From contig JALVUD010000039.1 in NCBI GenBank assembly GCA_027035765.1, positions 1-64,000 on the forward strand: a DNA stretch of 64,000 bases, in the 5' to 3' direction. The first letter of the stretch is position 1. Every line of letters begins with the position of its first letter. Origin of the DNA: Campylobacteraceae bacterium. Lineage in GTDB: Bacteria > Campylobacterota > Campylobacteria > Campylobacterales > Sulfurovaceae. A program made the position numbers and the translations under genes. This document shows, in pieces, positions 3,740 through 63,387 of this stretch. The notes beneath the pieces were generated by a model. The model saw nothing but the letters and a program-made list of their open reading frames with translations, was not told the origin of the DNA and ran no database searches.

Positions 3740-4381
3740 ATGCTTGTAGCTCCCAGCATACTCTCTGCCGATTTTGGCCTGCTTGGCGAAGAGGTCCGTG
3801 CCATCTGTGATGCCGGATGTGATCTGGTTCACGTGGATGTGATGGATGGCCATTTCGTCCCCAATATGACCATCGGTCCTGTCGTTGTCGAGGCCGTCGC
3901 AAAAGCGGCGACCAAACCGCTGGATGTGCACCTGATGGTGGAGGATAACAACTTCTTCGTCGACCTCTTCGCTCCGCTCAAACCGGAGTTTATTTCTTTT
4001 CACTTCGAGAGCGAACGCCACCCCAACCGGATGGCCCACAAGATCCGATCCCTGGGAATCCGCCCCTCGATGGTCCTCAATCCCCATACTCTGCCGGAGG
4101 TGACCGAATACCTCCTGGAGGATCTGGATATGGTGCTGCTGATGAGCGTCAACCCCGGTTTCGGAGGCCAGAAATTCATTCCCAATGTCATCGAGCGGGT
4201 CCAGCGGCTCAAGGAACTGATCGAGAAACGCAACCCGAACTGCCTCATCGAAGTGGACGGCGGAGTCAGTGACGCCAATATCGCCCAGCTCAAAGCCGCC
4301 GGTGTCGATGTGGTGGTGGCGGGCAGCTATGTCTTCAGGCACCCGCGGGGGTACAAAGAGGCGATTGCTTCTTTGAAGTGA
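3740..4381 (+). CDS. rpe: Ribulose-phosphate 3-epimerase
   Basis: A 213-residue TIM-barrel epimerase interconverting ribulose 5-phosphate and xylulose 5-phosphate in the pentose phosphate and Calvin-type pathways. Visible motifs are APSILSADF at the start, HVDVMDGHFVPN with a metal-binding His/Asp, DVHLMVE, SVNPGFGGQKF and EVDGGV. Length is normal. AAAGGAA precedes the ATG. It is followed by a heptamer-repeat block and then trpF; in Campylobacter rpe and dnaQ are also neighbours, so trpF and the repeat block look inserted between them. Certain. Confidence 0.97.
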   Translation: MLVAPSILSADFGLLGEEVRAICDAGCDLVHVDVMDGHFVPNMTIGPVVVEAVAKAATKPLDVHLMVEDNNFFVDLFAPLKPEFISFHFESERHPNRMAHKIRSLGIRPSMVLNPHTLPEVTEYLLEDLDMVLLMSVNPGFGGQKFIPNVIERVQRLKELIEKRNPNCLIEVDGGVSDANIAQLKAAGVDVVVAGSYVFRHPRGYKEAIASLK

Positions 4382-4607
4382 GGAGTGAGGGTGTTTTGTC
4401 ATTTGAATTTTGTCGGCAGTCGGCAGTCGGCAGTCGGCAGTCGGGGTGCCTTCGGCGCTCTTTGTCGTTTGATTCGTGTTAAGTGTTATGTGCTACGTGC
4501 TACGATCACTCGATTTCTAGTTACCAGTTATTCGTTACTAGTTTCTAAAATTCGGTTCCTCATTCCTCACCCCTCACTCCTCACTCTCTCACGAAAGGCC
4601 CTTTCGT
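4382..4607 (+). repeat. Heptamer-repeat composite block between rpe and trpF
   Basis: The block consists of successive degenerate tandem arrays, each with a 7-nt period: GTCGGCA four times plus a partial copy (4412-4446), GTGTTAA/GTGTTAT/GTGCTAC/GTGCTAC, then CTAGTTA/CCAGTTA/TTCGTTA-like copies, then CCTCATT/CCTCACC/CCTCACT repeats. A short stretch TTTTGTCATTTGAATT before the first array recurs before the same array at 46230. The block ends in an inverted repeat over the trpF ribosome site and start. Open frames through it are products of the repeats, not genes. Confidence 0.85.
4591..4607. repeat. Junction palindrome over the trpF Shine-Dalgarno and start
   Basis: ACGAAAGG, one centre base, CCTTTCGT. 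The AAAGG Shine-Dalgarno sequence is in the left arm and the first two bases of the GTG start are in the right arm, so the hairpin in mRNA would hide the initiation site. Confidence 0.75.
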
Positions 4608-5196
4608 GAGAGTCAAGATCTGCGGCATCACCAGCTACGACGATGCGATGCTCTCTATCGAGGCCGGGGCGGATGCTCTGGGGTTCGTTTTTTATCCGAA
4701 ATCCCCCCGCTACATCGCTCCCGAAAATGCACGTAGGATCATCGACCGTCTGCCTCCTTTTGTAGAAAAGGTGGGGCTCTTTGTCGAAGAGACCCCGGAA
4801 CGGATCACCGAGCTTTCCCGTCAGAGCGGGATCACCCTGGCGCAGATCCATTTTGATGTGGACGAGTCGTTCCTGGAGGCAGTTGACTTTCCAACCCTTC
4901 CGGTGGTGCGGGCGAAAGGCCCGGAGGATCTGGAGCGTTTCGCCGATCGCTACCGGCTGGTGGATGCCTATTGCGAAAGCTACGGCGGCAGTGGAAAACG
5001 GCTGGCACTGGAGTGGTTCGCCGGACAGGACAACTCCCGGATCATCATCGCCGGGGGTCTGACCCCGGGGAACGTGTCGGAGCTGGCGGGGTACGGCTTC
5101 TACGGCTGTGACGTCAGCAGCGGCACCGAGGCGGCCAAAGGGGTCAAAGATCCCGTGAAAGTACGGGATTTTATCCGCCATGCTCAAAGTCTTTGA
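4606..5196 (+). CDS. trpF: Phosphoribosylanthranilate isomerase
   Basis: A 196-residue barrel enzyme of tryptophan synthesis, converting N-(5-phosphoribosyl)anthranilate to the CdRP intermediate. The N-terminal KICGIT motif holds the catalytic Cys; GFVFYPKSPRYI, the catalytic-Asp region DVDESF, and the phosphate-binding GGLTPGNV and DVSSGTE segments are all present. It begins with GTG, with AAAGG 7 nt upstream inside a hairpin. No other trp gene is in the window, so this is a stand-alone copy outside a trp operon. Its end overlaps dnaQ by 17 nt. Confidence 0.95.
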   Translation: MRVKICGITSYDDAMLSIEAGADALGFVFYPKSPRYIAPENARRIIDRLPPFVEKVGLFVEETPERITELSRQSGITLAQIHFDVDESFLEAVDFPTLPVVRAKGPEDLERFADRYRLVDAYCESYGGSGKRLALEWFAGQDNSRIIIAGGLTPGNVSELAGYGFYGCDVSSGTEAAKGVKDPVKVRDFIRHAQSL

Positions 5197-46174: not shown

Positions 46175-46592
46175 TTTTGGATTTTGGATTATGGATTTTG
46201 GATGAAAAGAGGGGTGCCAACGGCGTTGCTTTTTGTCATTTGAATTCCGTCGGCAGTCGGCAGTCGGCAGTCGGCAGAGGGAAAGCAGCAAGTTGCAAGT
46301 TGCAAGACAGATCGCATAGGGCGATGTCATTGGTCATTGGTCATTGGTCATTGGGGGCAGGGCTTCAGCCCTGCAATGCGGAACTGAAATCCCGCCTCCA
46401 AAAAGATGCGTTGCGAAGCAGCGTCCCAAAATCTTCCATCTTCCATCTTCCATCTTCCATCGACTCTCGGGATAGCAATCACACGCTACACAGTTTTCAG
46501 TTTCTAGTTACTAGTTCCTCGTTACTAGTTTCTACCCGGTTTCTCACTCTTCACTCTTCACTCTTTACTCGAAGACTCCACAGGAGTCTCCA
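46175..46592 (+). repeat. Long heptamer-repeat block between miaB and xerH
   Basis: The 418-nt spacer is almost wholly made of 7-nt-period arrays: TTTTGGA/TTATGGA/TTTTGGA, GTCGGCA four times (46249-46276), AAGTTGC twice, TCATTGG four times (46327-46354), TTCCATC four times (46434-46461), CTAGTTAC-type units and TCACTCT/TCACTCT. Palindromic modules are interspersed (GCAGGGCTTCAGCCCTGC; GCGTTGCGAAGCAGCG). The order parallels the blocks before trpF and murB. It ends in a hairpin with the xerH ribosome site. No gene seen. Confidence 0.88.
46573..46589. repeat. Junction palindrome over the xerH Shine-Dalgarno
   Basis: AGACTCC, ACA, GGAGTCT. The right arm contains GGAG, the only ribosome site of xerH, 3 nt before its ATG at 46593 after GTCTCCA. 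Folding would hide it. Confidence 0.75.
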
Positions 46593-47480: not shown

Positions 47481-48260
47481 AGCTGTGAGGATTTTGATCT
47501 CCTCTTCCAGGGAGATGCCAAAGCGCTCCATCACCCGTTCTTTGGCCAGGTTGATCAGGGCGATCGCCTCGTCGTAGGTTCCCCCACCCAGGTTGACAAG
47601 GAAGTTGGCATGCACTTCACTCCAGGCCATCCCTCCCCGGCGGCAACCTTTGAGCCCCACCGCCTCGATGAGCCGCCCGGCGTAGTCTCCCGGCGGGTTT
47701 TTGAAAGCGCTGCCGGCACTGGGTTCCCTAGGCTGATTGTTTCGCAGTGTCAGGAGTTCCCGACGCAGGTTTTCGTCATAGCCCCGGCGGATAGGAAAGC
47801 GGGCAGCGGCGGCGATCCCGGGCAGCCGGGCATAGCGGTAGCCATGTTCGATCTCTTTGGCCGGGATCCATGCGTTGCCGATGCGGATCGACGCCAGCAG
47901 CGGGAAGATCTCGTAGCTTTTGACCCCGGCATTCATCGCCAGCATCCCGCCCAGGGTTCCCGGAAGTTTGGCGACGAACTCGAAGCCGGCCAGGTCGTGT
48001 TTTTTGGCGAAGCTGAGGATCTTCCCTGTGGGGGTGGCGGCACCGATCTCCAGCATATCACCCTCGATACGGCAGTAGTCGAAATCCTTCGAGAGCATCA
48101 TCAGGGGAGGCGGCGTGGGGGAGAGCAGCAGGTTGTTGGCTCCGCCGATCAGGTAACGGTCTTTGGGAATTCCATCCTCTTTCTCGATCATCAGTACGTC
48201 GATTTTTGGACCGATTTTGATGCTGGAGTATTTTGAAAAGTCGATGGTTTTAAAGAACAC
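47478..48260 (-). CDS. murB: UDP-N-acetylenolpyruvoylglucosamine reductase
   Basis: A 260-residue FAD enzyme of peptidoglycan precursor synthesis, short form as in Helicobacter. SSIKIGPKIDV, YLIGGANNLLLSPTPP (FAD binding), the GFEFVAKLPGTLGGMLAMNAG block, PSAGSAFKNPPGDYAGRLIE with the catalytic Ser, and SEVHANFLVNLGGGTYDEA are present. The start is GTG with GGAG 6 nt upstream, inside the imperfect palindrome GCGGAGCGCTGCG at the edge of a heptamer block. Confidence 0.94.
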   Translation of the reverse strand: MFFKTIDFSKYSSIKIGPKIDVLMIEKEDGIPKDRYLIGGANNLLLSPTPPPLMMLSKDFDYCRIEGDMLEIGAATPTGKILSFAKKHDLAGFEFVAKLPGTLGGMLAMNAGVKSYEIFPLLASIRIGNAWIPAKEIEHGYRYARLPGIAAAARFPIRRGYDENLRRELLTLRNNQPREPSAGSAFKNPPGDYAGRLIEAVGLKGCRRGGMAWSEVHANFLVNLGGGTYDEAIALINLAKERVMERFGISLEEEIKILTA

Positions 48261-48590
48261 GCAGCGCTCCGCAAGTGAGGAGTGAGGAATGAGGAGTGAG
48301 GAACCGAATTGTAGAAACTAGTAACGAGTAACGAGTAACTAGTAATTGATCGCGTAGCGTGGGATTGCTATCCCGAGAGTCGATGGAAGATGGAAGATGG
48401 AAGATGGAGGATTTTGGGATGCTGCTTCGCAACGCATCTTTGGATGAGTGATGAATGGTGAATGGTGAATGGTTTCGGTATGTGCCGCTATGCGGCACCT
48501 CTCCTCTTAACACGTAGCACGTAACACATAACACATTTCTTACGACTCTTTTCCTGCCGACTGCCGACTGCCGACTGCCGACTAGCGGAA
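48261..48590 (-). repeat. Heptamer-repeat block between mqnD and murB
   Basis: A 330-nt spacer that, read on the minus strand from mqnD to murB, has (GTCGGCA)4 (48554-48581), GTGTTAT/GTGTTAC/GTGCTAC units (48509-48536), the palindrome GGTGCCGCATAGCGGCACAT, ACCATTC units, GATGCGTTGCGAAGCAGC, (TTCCATC)4, a CTCTCGGGATAGCAATC segment, CTAGTTACT units and CCTCACT units. The last 180 nt are a recognisable inverted copy of the right half of the 46175 block. No gene seen. Confidence 0.88.
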
Positions 48591-54340: not shown

Positions 54341-54899
54341 CAGGGTTGCCGATCGATCCGGTTGTAGAAGTATGCTTAGGTAGTTCCAAATGATGGGTTC
54401 GGGAGTTCCATTCGTGTTCATCAGGGTGTCTGAAGAGGTGGCAAACGGTCCAAGAATCGATGTGATACTCCAGTAGCGCGCATTCACTGCGCGGTGCCTC
54501 TCTGGCACAAATCTCTCCGGGGTTGAGGTAGAGGGTGCTCCCTTTGAGCTCTGCGCTGAAACAGTGGGTGTGACCGTAGATCACCAGGTCGGTATCCGGG
54601 GTCATATAATAGGGGAGGTGCATCATCTTCACCTTCAGCTCCCCGATTTTGAAATACCAGGGTTCGGGCCGGATACGATATTTGTCCGCAAGAGGGTGGA
54701 GGGGACGGTCGTTGTTTCCGAAGACGGCGGCATAGGGGAGGCCTGTTTCGGCCAGCTGCCGCAGATTCTCTTCGAGGCAGAGATCCCCGGCGTGCAGCAG
54801 ATACTCGGCTCCCTCTTCCAGCAGTTTTCCGATCGCCGCCTCCTGGAGGTCGCTGCGGCGATGGGGATCGGAGAGGACCCCTATCTTCAGGAGCGCCAA
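54336..54899 (-). CDS. YfcE/MJ0936-type metallophosphoesterase
   Basis: A 187-residue calcineurin-like phosphodiesterase. Metal ligands are in GVLSDPHRR (D, H), HAGDL, GNND and IYGHTH; LNPGE completes the family. The usual first motif is SDTHG; here it is SDPHRR. Likely a phosphodiesterase with unknown physiological substrate. The start is TTG with AAGGA 6 nt upstream; both lie in a near-perfect inverted repeat at the edge of a repeat block. Confidence 0.85.
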   Translation of the reverse strand: MALLKIGVLSDPHRRSDLQEAAIGKLLEEGAEYLLHAGDLCLEENLRQLAETGLPYAAVFGNNDRPLHPLADKYRIRPEPWYFKIGELKVKMMHLPYYMTPDTDLVIYGHTHCFSAELKGSTLYLNPGEICAREAPRSECALLEYHIDSWTVCHLFRHPDEHEWNSRTHHLELPKHTSTTGSIGNPV

Positions 54900-54908
54900 G
54901 GGCGATCC
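54890..54908. repeat. Junction palindrome over the phosphodiesterase start
   Basis: GGAGCGCC, AAG, GGCGATCC: 8-bp arms with one mismatch. On the minus strand the first arm contains the GGA of the ribosome site and the loop contains the TT of the TTG start. Confidence 0.6.
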
Positions 54909-55079
54909 TTCAGGTTGAGTGAAGAATGAGGAGTGAGGAGTGAGGAACCGAAGTGTCGATTTTGTCCACAGGTTTCACGAGTATAGGAATAAATGAGAAG
55001 CGTTGTTTTACAACGCCATCCAAAACTCTTCATTCTTAACTCTTCACTTTTCACTTGTAGGCGGAAAACCGCCTACAAG
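54909..55079 (-). repeat. Repeat block between glcD and the phosphodiesterase gene
   Basis: On the minus strand: palindrome CTTGTAGGCGG-4-CCGCCTACAAG (55054-55079, 11-bp arms) over the glcD stop, heptamers TGAAAAG/TGAAGAG/TTAAGAA/TGAAGAG, the GGCGTTGTAAAACAACGC palindrome, then TTCGGTTCCTCACTCC with CCTCACT/CCTCATT heptamers. The TTCGGTTCCTCA segment is the same as before trpF and murB. Confidence 0.8.
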
Positions 55080-56455
55080 CCCATCTTCCCGGGATTGAGG
55101 ATGCCGTTGGGGTCGAAGGCTTTTTTGATCGATTTGAAGAGCTGCAGTTCGGCAGGGCTGAAGGCGATCTCCATAAATTCAGCCTTGCTCAGACCGATCC
55201 CGTGCTCGCCGCTGAGTGTGCCTCCCAGATCCACAACGAGCTGGAAAATCTCCCGGATCGCTTTGTGCCCCTTCTCCAGCTCCTCGGGATCGCTGCCGTC
55301 CACCATGACGTTGACGTGAATGTTTCCGTCGCCGGCATGGCCGAAGCAGGGAACGACCAGGCCGTACTTCTCCCCGATGGCATAGATCTCTTTCAGCGCT
55401 TTCGGGAGCATACTCCTTGGAACGGAGATATCTTCATTGAGCTTTTTGCTGCCGTAGATCGTAATAGAGGGAGAGGCGCCGCGCCGCCCTTTCCAGATCT
55501 TCTCTCTCTCCGCCGGGTCTTCGGCCACGCGAAACTCCTGGGCTCCGTTTTCCCGAAAGGACTCCTCCAGAACCTTCAGCTGGAAATCGACCTCTTCGGG
55601 GACATTGCCGTCCACATCGCCGATAAGCAGGGCGCCGGCCTCTTCGGGGAGCTCGATTCCCAGCTTCTCTTTGACCGCTTTGACCACCAGGGCGTCGAGA
55701 AACTCCATCGCCACCGGATTGGCCCCCTCGGCCAGGGATTTGAAGACGGCGTTCATCGCCGCCTCCACATCGGGGAAGATTCCCATGTAGGATTTGACGT
55801 ACTTCGGTTTGGGAATCAGCTTGAGGGTGATCTCGGTGATCACTGCCAGGGTTCCTTCGCTGGCAATGAGGATTCCGGCGACGTTGTAGCCGGCCACATC
55901 TTTGATAGTCCGTTTGCCGGCCCGGATGACATCGCCGTTGGGGAGCACGGCTCTGAGGGCCATGACGTAGTCTTTGGTCAGACCGTACTTGGCGGCCCGC
56001 ATCCCCCCGGCATTTTCGCTGACGTTGCCTCCGAGGGTGGAGTACTCTTCGCTGGCGGGATCGGGAGGGTAGAAGAGCCCCAGCTCCTCCACATGGCGCT
56101 GGAGATCCTTGTTGATGACTCCGGGCTGGACGACGGCGAGCATATTCTCCATGTCGATCTCCAGGATCCTGTTCATATGCTTCTCCATGGCCAGAACGAT
56201 GCCGCCGTTGACGGGCAGAGCTCCGCCGGTGAAGCCGCTGCCCGCTCCGCGAGGGACAATGACGATGCCGTGGTGGTTGCAGTAGGTAAGGATCCGGCTT
56301 ACATCCTCTTCATGGCGGGGAAAGACCACGGCGTCGGGTTCGTAATAGGTTCGGGTGGCGTCGTAACTGTAGGCCCGCAAATGGGCCTTGTCGCTGTGGA
56401 GGTTTTCAGCACCGACGATTCCCGAGAGGGCCTCCAGATGTTTCGGATCGATCAC
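55073..56455 (-). CDS. glcD: GlcD-like FAD-linked oxidase (glycolate/D-lactate type)
   Basis: A 460-residue FAD flavoprotein. The FAD-binding_4 part includes VPRGAGSGFTGGALP near residue 68, ENMLAVVQPGV, PDPASEEYSTLGGNVSENAGG and GSEGTL-type ASEGTLAVITE; the C-terminal oxidase domain has CFGHAGDGNIHVNV and GEHGIG. It oxidises a 2-hydroxyacid; glycolate or D-lactate cannot be separated. No Fe-S partner GlcF is adjacent. Coupled to the upstream pgbA-like gene by ATGA, an order also known from Helicobacter. Confidence 0.9.
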   Translation of the reverse strand: MIDPKHLEALSGIVGAENLHSDKAHLRAYSYDATRTYYEPDAVVFPRHEEDVSRILTYCNHHGIVIVPRGAGSGFTGGALPVNGGIVLAMEKHMNRILEIDMENMLAVVQPGVINKDLQRHVEELGLFYPPDPASEEYSTLGGNVSENAGGMRAAKYGLTKDYVMALRAVLPNGDVIRAGKRTIKDVAGYNVAGILIASEGTLAVITEITLKLIPKPKYVKSYMGIFPDVEAAMNAVFKSLAEGANPVAMEFLDALVVKAVKEKLGIELPEEAGALLIGDVDGNVPEEVDFQLKVLEESFRENGAQEFRVAEDPAEREKIWKGRRGASPSITIYGSKKLNEDISVPRSMLPKALKEIYAIGEKYGLVVPCFGHAGDGNIHVNVMVDGSDPEELEKGHKAIREIFQLVVDLGGTLSGEHGIGLSKAEFMEIAFSPAELQLFKSIKKAFDPNGILNPGKMGL

Positions 56456-62153: not shown

Positions 62154-63161
62154 TTAGAAGTCGATCTGCATCGTGGAGCAGTGGAGGCTTCCTCCCTGGG
62201 TGATGAGTCGGGAGCAGGGGATGGGAATCACCTCCCGATCGGGAAAGAGCTCCCTGAAAATCTCTCCGGCTTCTCGGTCGGTGGATCGGCTCTCGTAGGT
62301 GGGGTAGAGCAGCGCCCTGTTGGTGATGAGGAAATTGGCGTAGGTGGCGGGCAGGCGATTCCCCGCTTCATCATAGATCGCCGGAGGCATCGGCAGGGGG
62401 ACCAGGCGGTAGGGGGCACCCTCCACGGTGCGGAAGTTCTGCAACTGCTCCTCCATCCGATTCAGCTCTTCGTAGTGTTCATCCTCGGGGTCCTCGCAGC
62501 GCACATAGGCGAGGGTCTCCGGATCACAGAAGCGGGCCAGGGTGTCGATATGGCCGTCGGTATCGTCACCGGCCAGGTATCCGTGATCGAGCCAGAGGAC
62601 CCGCCTGGCACCCAGCGTTTCGGAGAGCATTGTCTCCACATGCTCTTTGCTTGTCTCTCCGTTGCGGTTGGGGTTGAGCAGGCAGCGGGAGGTGGTGAGG
62701 ATCGTTCCCGCTCCGTCGCTTTCGATGGAGCCTCCTTCCAGGACGTAGTCGATGGAGCGCATCGGCGTGGTTCCGAAGTAGCCCTTTCGGTGTAAAGTCC
62801 GGTTGACAGCGTTGTCAAGCGAAGACTCGTATTTGCCGCCCCAGCCGTTGAAAACAAAGTCAAGCAGCAGGGGGTTTCCATCCTCTTCGGCACTCAGGGG
62901 ACCGTAATCCCGGGTCCAGGTATCGTTGTAGTCCGTTTCGATGAAGGTAAGGTTCTGTTTGGAGCAGAAGAGATCGGAGAGCGCCTCACGATCCCGGCAG
63001 AGGATATAGACGGTCTGGGAGTAGGCGACGGCCTGGGCGATCCTCACGAAGGGGGCGCAGGCTTTCTGCAGATCTCCCTCCTGCGCCCAGTCGGTCTCTT
63101 CGTGGGGGAAGGCTAGCAGCACTGCCTTTTGGGATTCCCACTCCGCTTTGAGTCTAAGCAT
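62154..63161 (-). CDS. aguA: Agmatine deiminase
   Basis: A 335-residue guanidine-modifying enzyme producing N-carbamoylputrescine from agmatine. NDTWTRDYGPL, FNGWGGKYESSLDN, LEGGSIESDGAGT, NPNRN, DDTDGHIDTLARF with the catalytic His, and the C-terminal GGSLHCSTMQ with the catalytic Cys (residue 329) are complete. The ATG at 63161 and its GGGAG are enclosed in a perfect hairpin with 18-bp arms, which should strongly hinder initiation unless opened. Confidence 0.95.
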   Translation of the reverse strand: MLRLKAEWESQKAVLLAFPHEETDWAQEGDLQKACAPFVRIAQAVAYSQTVYILCRDREALSDLFCSKQNLTFIETDYNDTWTRDYGPLSAEEDGNPLLLDFVFNGWGGKYESSLDNAVNRTLHRKGYFGTTPMRSIDYVLEGGSIESDGAGTILTTSRCLLNPNRNGETSKEHVETMLSETLGARRVLWLDHGYLAGDDTDGHIDTLARFCDPETLAYVRCEDPEDEHYEELNRMEEQLQNFRTVEGAPYRLVPLPMPPAIYDEAGNRLPATYANFLITNRALLYPTYESRSTDREAGEIFRELFPDREVIPIPCSRLITQGGSLHCSTMQIDF

Positions 63162-63185
63162 GGGAGTCTCCCATGCTTAGACTCA
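63149..63185. repeat. 18-bp-arm junction palindrome over the aguA start
   Basis: TGAGTCTAAGCATGGGAG, one centre base, then its exact reverse complement. The coding arm contains aguA codons 1-4; the other arm is the upstream copy carrying the GGGAG ribosome site. Heptamers (GTGAATG, three copies, 63186-63215) abut it. Confidence 0.9.
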
Positions 63186-63387
63186 GGTGAATGGTGAATG
63201 GTGAATAGTGAATGATTTCGGTATGCGTTGCATTTTGGCAACGCTTTTTATCGGAGTGAATTGTAGGTGATTTTGGTTTGTATTTCTGCATCGGTTTTCC
63301 CATTTCAAATCTTCAAAGAGGGCCTGGCTCCATTCAAACAACTAACGACTAGAGACTTGAGGGCCGCAGGCCCGTGCTATCGACTGA
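63186..63387 (-). repeat. Repeat block between the 63388 gene and aguA
   Basis: Read on the minus strand: GGGCC-TGC-GGCCC hairpin (63361-63373), TCTCTAG/TCGTTAG/TTGTTTG, an unrepetitive 90 nt, GCGTTGC-CAAAAT-GCAACGC, then TATTCAC/CATTCAC/CATTCAC heptamers. The same TACCGAAA plus ATTCAC join occurs near 48470. No gene seen. Confidence 0.75.

Follow-up and report, generated by a model that had tools for sequence, protein, structure and literature searches.

Gene-derived palindromes where heptamer arrays meet gene starts and stops: probable scars of DNA copying

The start of the aguA gene raises the question of why a ribosome site should lie enclosed in a perfect palindrome, and whether such a structure is a regulatory element of the mRNA or the trace of an event in the DNA. 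The gene belongs to a genome of 2.03 Mb whose nearest named relatives are Nitratifractor (aguA identity 92%), and it was studied in a stretch of 64,000 nucleotides, referred to as the window. The two arms of the palindrome, of 18 nt each, are 100% complementary and separated by a spacer of 1 nt, with GGGAG located in the 5′ arm and the ATG (63161, minus strand) in the 3′ arm, and the predicted RNA fold has an energy of -38.1 kcal/mol (z -7.7). The first-pass annotation of this DNA, which described the aguA start as an 18-bp-arm perfect hairpin holding both elements, is therefore exact on this point. It had further claimed similar though shorter structures at four other starts, each directly after a heptamer array, and had suggested that they may switch translation off unless opened by ribosomes arriving from upstream, by heat or by an RNA-binding protein. 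The features considered are collected in Table 1.

Table 1. Palindromes, heptamer arrays and the aguA gene in the window
Feature	Position	Strand	Details
Perfect palindrome at aguA start	63149-63185	-	arms 63149-63166 and 63168-63185
Heptamer array abutting aguA palindrome	63186-63213	-	unit ATTCACC on coding strand
aguA-type agmatine deiminase gene	62154-63161	-	Pfam PAD_porph
Perfect 13-bp palindrome at trpF start	4586-4612	+	arms 4586-4598 and 4600-4612, AAAGG in 5′ arm
Heptamer array abutting trpF palindrome	4556-4586	+	CTCCTCA type
7-bp hairpin before start of xerH-like recombinase gene (46593)	46573-46589	+	GGAG in 3′ arm
Heptamer array upstream of xerH-like gene	46544-46570	+	CTCTTCA
Imperfect hairpin at TTG start of phosphoesterase gene	54890-54908	-	8-bp arms, one mismatch
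Heptamer array upstream of phosphoesterase gene	54927-54946	-	period-7 repeats
Heptamer array upstream of murB (start 48260)	48274-48302	-	junction without convincing hairpin
Stop-codon palindrome CTTGTAGGCGG/CCGCCTACAAG	55054-55079	-	holds stop of gene 55073-56455, then repeats

A heptamer array does precede all five starts named by that annotation (aguA, trpF, xerH, phosphodiesterase and murB), and the hairpins differ greatly in strength. The trpF palindrome is real and larger than the segment 4591-4607 originally assigned to it, with the GTG start (4606) inside its 3′ arm and a predicted fold z of -2.7. At xerH a hairpin exists, with a loop of 3 nt, but it is weak and not significant alone (z -0.7), and the same holds for the short stem at the phosphodiesterase gene (z -1.3), while the imperfect hairpin suspected near 48258, at murB, is unconvincing (z 0.05, best coding-spanning stem 3). 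The palindrome holding the stop of gene 55073-56455 is a gene-end junction of the same kind as those at starts. As a separate observation, stretches of 76-88 nt recur in inverted orientation within the window with 88-97% identity (46402-46489 and 48354-48441; 4510-4585 and 48274-48349), and its repeat blocks, each a mosaic in which arrays are combined with small dyads, form a dispersed composite repeat family.

The arrays were characterised in a sample of the same genome made of the window and 54 further stretches picked only for repeat hits, amounting to 346 kb and 372 genes called with a simple ORF caller. In this sample, 213 arrays have a period of 7, compared with 1-11 at periods of 5, 6, 8, 9 and 10, and 25 of the 213 fall mostly inside predicted genes. 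A period of 7 and a mainly intergenic position are the properties of STRR/LSSR heptamer arrays; the cyanobacterial STRR are likewise heptamer tandem arrays, with intergenic 7-bp repeats near start codons. The TAACTGA repeats of Beggiatoaceae (PMC4679880) are also intergenic 7-bp repeats near start codons that sometimes overlap stops, whereas the arrays described here are of many heptamer types; moreover, that report leaves palindromes unmentioned and finds canonical SD sequences to be rare, as opposed to the gene-derived hairpins with SD reported here. In addition, the array itself often supplies the stop codon of the preceding gene (TGA or TAG in AGTGAGG-like units; at 4379-4381 of the window, at L088, L111, L119 and at many loci), as if it had replaced the gene end.

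The occurrence of hairpins at these junctions is far more general than first noted. Start regions were scanned for stems from -35 to +22, with dinucleotide shuffles as the null. Where an array ends within 40 nt of the start (n=45), a stem of at least 7 is found in 56% of cases and of at least 9 in 38%, versus 2.6% and 0.4% in shuffles; for the 243 starts that lack an array in the nearest 400 nt the values are only 2.9% and 0.8%, near their own shuffles. With the array 10-40 nt upstream (n=44 starts of the 346-kb sample), 39% have a stem of at least 9, compared with 0% of shuffles. When one arm is forced to lie in the coding sequence, array-adjacent starts give 29%, as opposed to 6% after upstream regions and coding arms are swapped between genes. 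About a quarter of the array-adjacent starts have stems below 6. In Nitratifractor salsuginis DSM 16511 (G011), whose stretches were sampled mostly at even steps and not, like the others, around repeat hits, stems of at least 9 occur at 29% of 21 array-adjacent starts and at 0 of 321 array-less ones. The presence of the same pattern in this complete genome and in independent assemblies rules out an assembly artefact. Furthermore, a genus-wide pattern search retrieved 113 starts of the form array-GGAG-ATG, with stems of at least 8 in 65% and of at least 10 in 41% (shuffles 1.2% and 0%), and in a sample of the phylum one such pattern matched 8 of 397 genomes, in three genera.

The anatomy of the junctions is strikingly regular. 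Array, hairpin and gene follow one another without a gap: the outer end of the hairpin coincides with the end of the array in 15 of 29 starts and lies at most 3 nt from it in 27, and at stops the distance is at most 3 nt in 7 of 10. Loops are mostly of 3-4 nt, and near-perfect inverted arms joined by such a short loop are what template-switch hairpins display. The position of the GGAG core is variable (3′ arm 36, loop 28, 5′ arm 25). Gene ends behave similarly, as 26% of those with 10-40 nt between stop and array (n=23) have a stem of at least 9, versus 0% of shuffles, and the stop hairpins include up to 24 coding nucleotides; at many gene ends, the array begins on the stop codon itself and there is no hairpin. 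A T-run is missing after all 13 stop hairpins listed, and intrinsic terminators were rejected for these stops. A conserved element sequence was also rejected, the arms being gene-specific, and CsrA-type sites with GGA in the loop were considered, the position of GGA being variable. Finally, -10-like sites are found less often close to array starts (9/45) than elsewhere (89/243), which makes a leaderless start, or a promoter within the hairpin, unlikely.

To follow the hairpins across relatives, five genes were traced through 41 genomes. Of the 39 orthologues that lie next to an array, 26 have stems of at least 8, compared with 5 of the 96 without one (p=1.6e-13), so that, in the comparison with relatives lacking the block proposed at the outset, most array-less orthologues are devoid of the hairpin. 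The aguA orthologues display every stage: the hairpin is perfect in the window's genome and in G006, L206, L208 and L210 have an imperfect version whose loop holds the SD, and there is no hairpin in the array-less L209, L211, L212, L214 and L215. The heptamer type at one junction can differ among species while the hairpin persists. Moreover, the arms change together between relatives, as they do in template-switch hairpins. When coding arms differ between genomes, the 5′ arm of the same genome pairs in 232 of 292 cases and that of the other genome in 32 of 292, a count that favours the own arm, as members were pre-filtered for 60% pairing; in hand-picked families without this filter the figures are 182/256 and 41/256, including a stop family (L117:2924-4780) with two rows one base out of register, whose covariation was read from the aligned sequences. 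Among 42 hairpin families, more than one kind of Watson-Crick pair occurs in 31 columns, which belong to 10 families, with family counts that are small and genomes that are related, and in two families the covariation score was reached by 1/500 and 7/500 shuffles. For example, the arms at a hydrolase gene read TGCAATAAAAGG/CCTTTTATTGCA in the window's genome, AGTAGG/CCTACT in G006 and AGCAGG/CCTGCT in G008. The covarying changes are often synonymous in the coding arm and mirrored upstream. Palindromes at stops covary as well (GTGGAATTTTC in the window's genome and G006, GTCGAATTC in G004 and G009; CGGCAGT versus CGGCTGT), and the early suggestion that the palindromes at start and stop codons share one nature is borne out by these covarying stems beside arrays at both gene edges. 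Two further cases deserve mention. In trpF orthologues with a TTG start (L236, L237, L238) the start hairpin differs and is equally self-complementary, and the N. salsuginis orthologue of a VTT-domain (DedA-like) gene (L156; L270 ~14177) has a covarying hairpin and no ATG at the aligned start, with ATT or TTG as possible start codons.

Traditionally, covariation is taken as a sign that RNA is under selection. ROSE and fourU thermometers and standby-site mRNAs such as tisB sequester SD and start codon in a hairpin, as is the case here. The hairpin might be an RNA-level element that gates translation, with selection on pairing driving the covariation and with the gate being, in different variants, a standby site on the unstructured pyrimidine array, a thermosensor, an RNA-binding protein or translational coupling. 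The strong covariation and the enclosure of the SD, and often of the start too, are consistent with this explanation, and in the predicted mRNA the SD or the start is paired, as would be expected of a switch, with the median predicted probability of an unpaired SD dropping to 0.03 at array-adjacent starts, compared with 0.46 elsewhere. The pyrimidine-rich upstream array would also make a plausible standby site, a topic treated in PMC3936740. Against these points stand the widely varying strength of the stems, the unfixed position of the SD and the fact that the structures are not confined to translation-initiation regions, as covarying palindromes of the same kind are found at stops. Nor do the mismatches bear the mark of selection on RNA pairing, which would tolerate G:U over A:C: residual mismatches by family and column are 14 G:U and 20 A:C, a strict count gives 4 and 13, and an RNA-like G:U to A:C ratio of 3:1 is rejected at 3e-5, the missing G:U excess resting on 34 non-independent mismatches. 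Such a lack of RNA-type bias is instead what template-switch hairpins are expected to have. In addition, the carriers are housekeeping genes of all kinds, including trpF, hisG, ispG/GcpE, TsaD, RuvB, RNase R and a Mur ligase, several of which can hardly be kept off in an autotroph. Known translational hairpins belong to specific genes and have stems that are conserved or imperfect, can melt and contain G:U pairs, unlike the perfect, gene-specific hairpins found here, also at stops. The missing G:U excess, the structures at stop codons and the ordinary housekeeping functions thus weaken the reading as selected RNA, which we regard as rather unlikely. Of the switch proposed for aguA and the other starts, the low predicted accessibility of the SD stands and the notion that the hairpins are built as translation switches is not supported. 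The mRNA would nevertheless carry the hairpins, and an effect on translation is possible.

A different role in the mRNA would be protective, with the hairpin preventing the SD from pairing with the CCUC-rich upstream array. On the coding strand the arrays are pyrimidine-rich at 46 of 54 starts, a composition complementary to the SD, and purine-rich at 51 of 71 stops (window and L071-L124). The SD is itself in a stem, and hence unexposed, in 61 of 94 cases, and protection would leave both the stop palindromes and the missing G:U excess unexplained, making it a most improbable explanation.

The account that we favour, with moderate confidence, is that the palindromes are junction scars at the DNA level, left by a fold-back or template-switch copy of the gene edge and later homogenised by quasi-palindrome correction. 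A heptamer block would form or insert beside a gene, and a 3′ end at the gene edge would fold back or switch template, copying the edge of that gene in inverted orientation, with the array beginning where the copy ends. Template switching during replication would then keep re-copying one arm from the other, and such repeated correction would explain arms that are near-perfect and change along with the coding sequence. Junctions that survive at starts would have to carry an SD within the gap of about 20 nt between array and start codon, either retained or re-created as GGAG by the copying of codons containing CTCC, which may be why the hairpin encloses the ribosome site. No single copying event between strains was caught among the genomes compared, and we infer the fold-back step, together with ongoing correction and selection for a retained SD. 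Processes of this kind have been described. Quasi-palindrome template switching in Escherichia coli turns imperfect inverted repeats into perfect ones (PMC7202029), and one proposal attributes to template switching both the creation and the maintenance of hairpins with compensatory changes (PMC8794818). In yeast, inverted duplications result when priming occurs by fold-back at a break (PMC10622511). The template-switch systems (PMC7202029, PMC8794818) share with the present junctions perfect inverted repeats that have short loops and arms varying together, and in them single events create or perfect hairpins, whereas here the hairpins are found again and again at gene edges within one genus, touch heptamer arrays and often have one arm within protein-coding sequence. 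Concerted arms of perfect inverted repeats in protein-coding sequence are also known from Nematomorpha mitochondria (PMC6649704), where the palindromes are much longer, have both arms coding and have no tie to tandem arrays. Counter to the scar model stand the five array-less orthologues with stems of at least 8 and the quarter or so of array-adjacent starts with stems below 6, and the model accounts for the restriction to array-adjacent edges only by assuming a common origin.

Two other explanations place the cause in the DNA. The hairpin or cruciform could be a functional element by which the end of a heptamer block able to move or recombine is recognised, for instance by a structure-specific nuclease or a transposase. 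The precise abutment of array and hairpin, the inverted recurrence of block stretches and the involvement of both gene edges point in this direction, while the arms match each gene and share no common sequence, and at numerous stop edges a hairpin is missing, the array starting right at the stop codon, so that we consider a recognised end quite improbable. Alternatively, the blocks could be made by end-healing, in which a broken 3′ end would fold back and copy the gene edge, and a template-guided or slipping polymerase would then add purine-rich heptamers outward from both gene ends. Such outward addition would fit the orientation of the arrays, whose purine-rich strand points outward from the gene in the 5′ to 3′ direction at 46/54 starts and 51/71 stops. 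Stop codons together with false SDs may be enough to account for this polarity, and end-healing is put forward here as an unlikely, speculative origin. If true, it would mean that bacteria add repeats to chromosomal breaks in a telomere-like manner.

In the part of the literature covered by our searches, we found no prior description of gene-derived palindromes at heptamer-array junctions. As scars of copying, these junctions would be a natural, genome-wide record of fold-back or template-switch copying in bacteria, with zero-gap boundaries and many orthologous replicates. They would also illustrate how ribosome sites may acquire covarying hairpins when RNA is not under selection, and caution is needed, as covariation and an enclosed SD do not prove a regulatory RNA. 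If, on the other hand, translation does respond to the hairpins, one unknown control would be common to dozens of housekeeping genes of a vent bacterium. Either reading makes the mechanism that builds the heptamer blocks testable.
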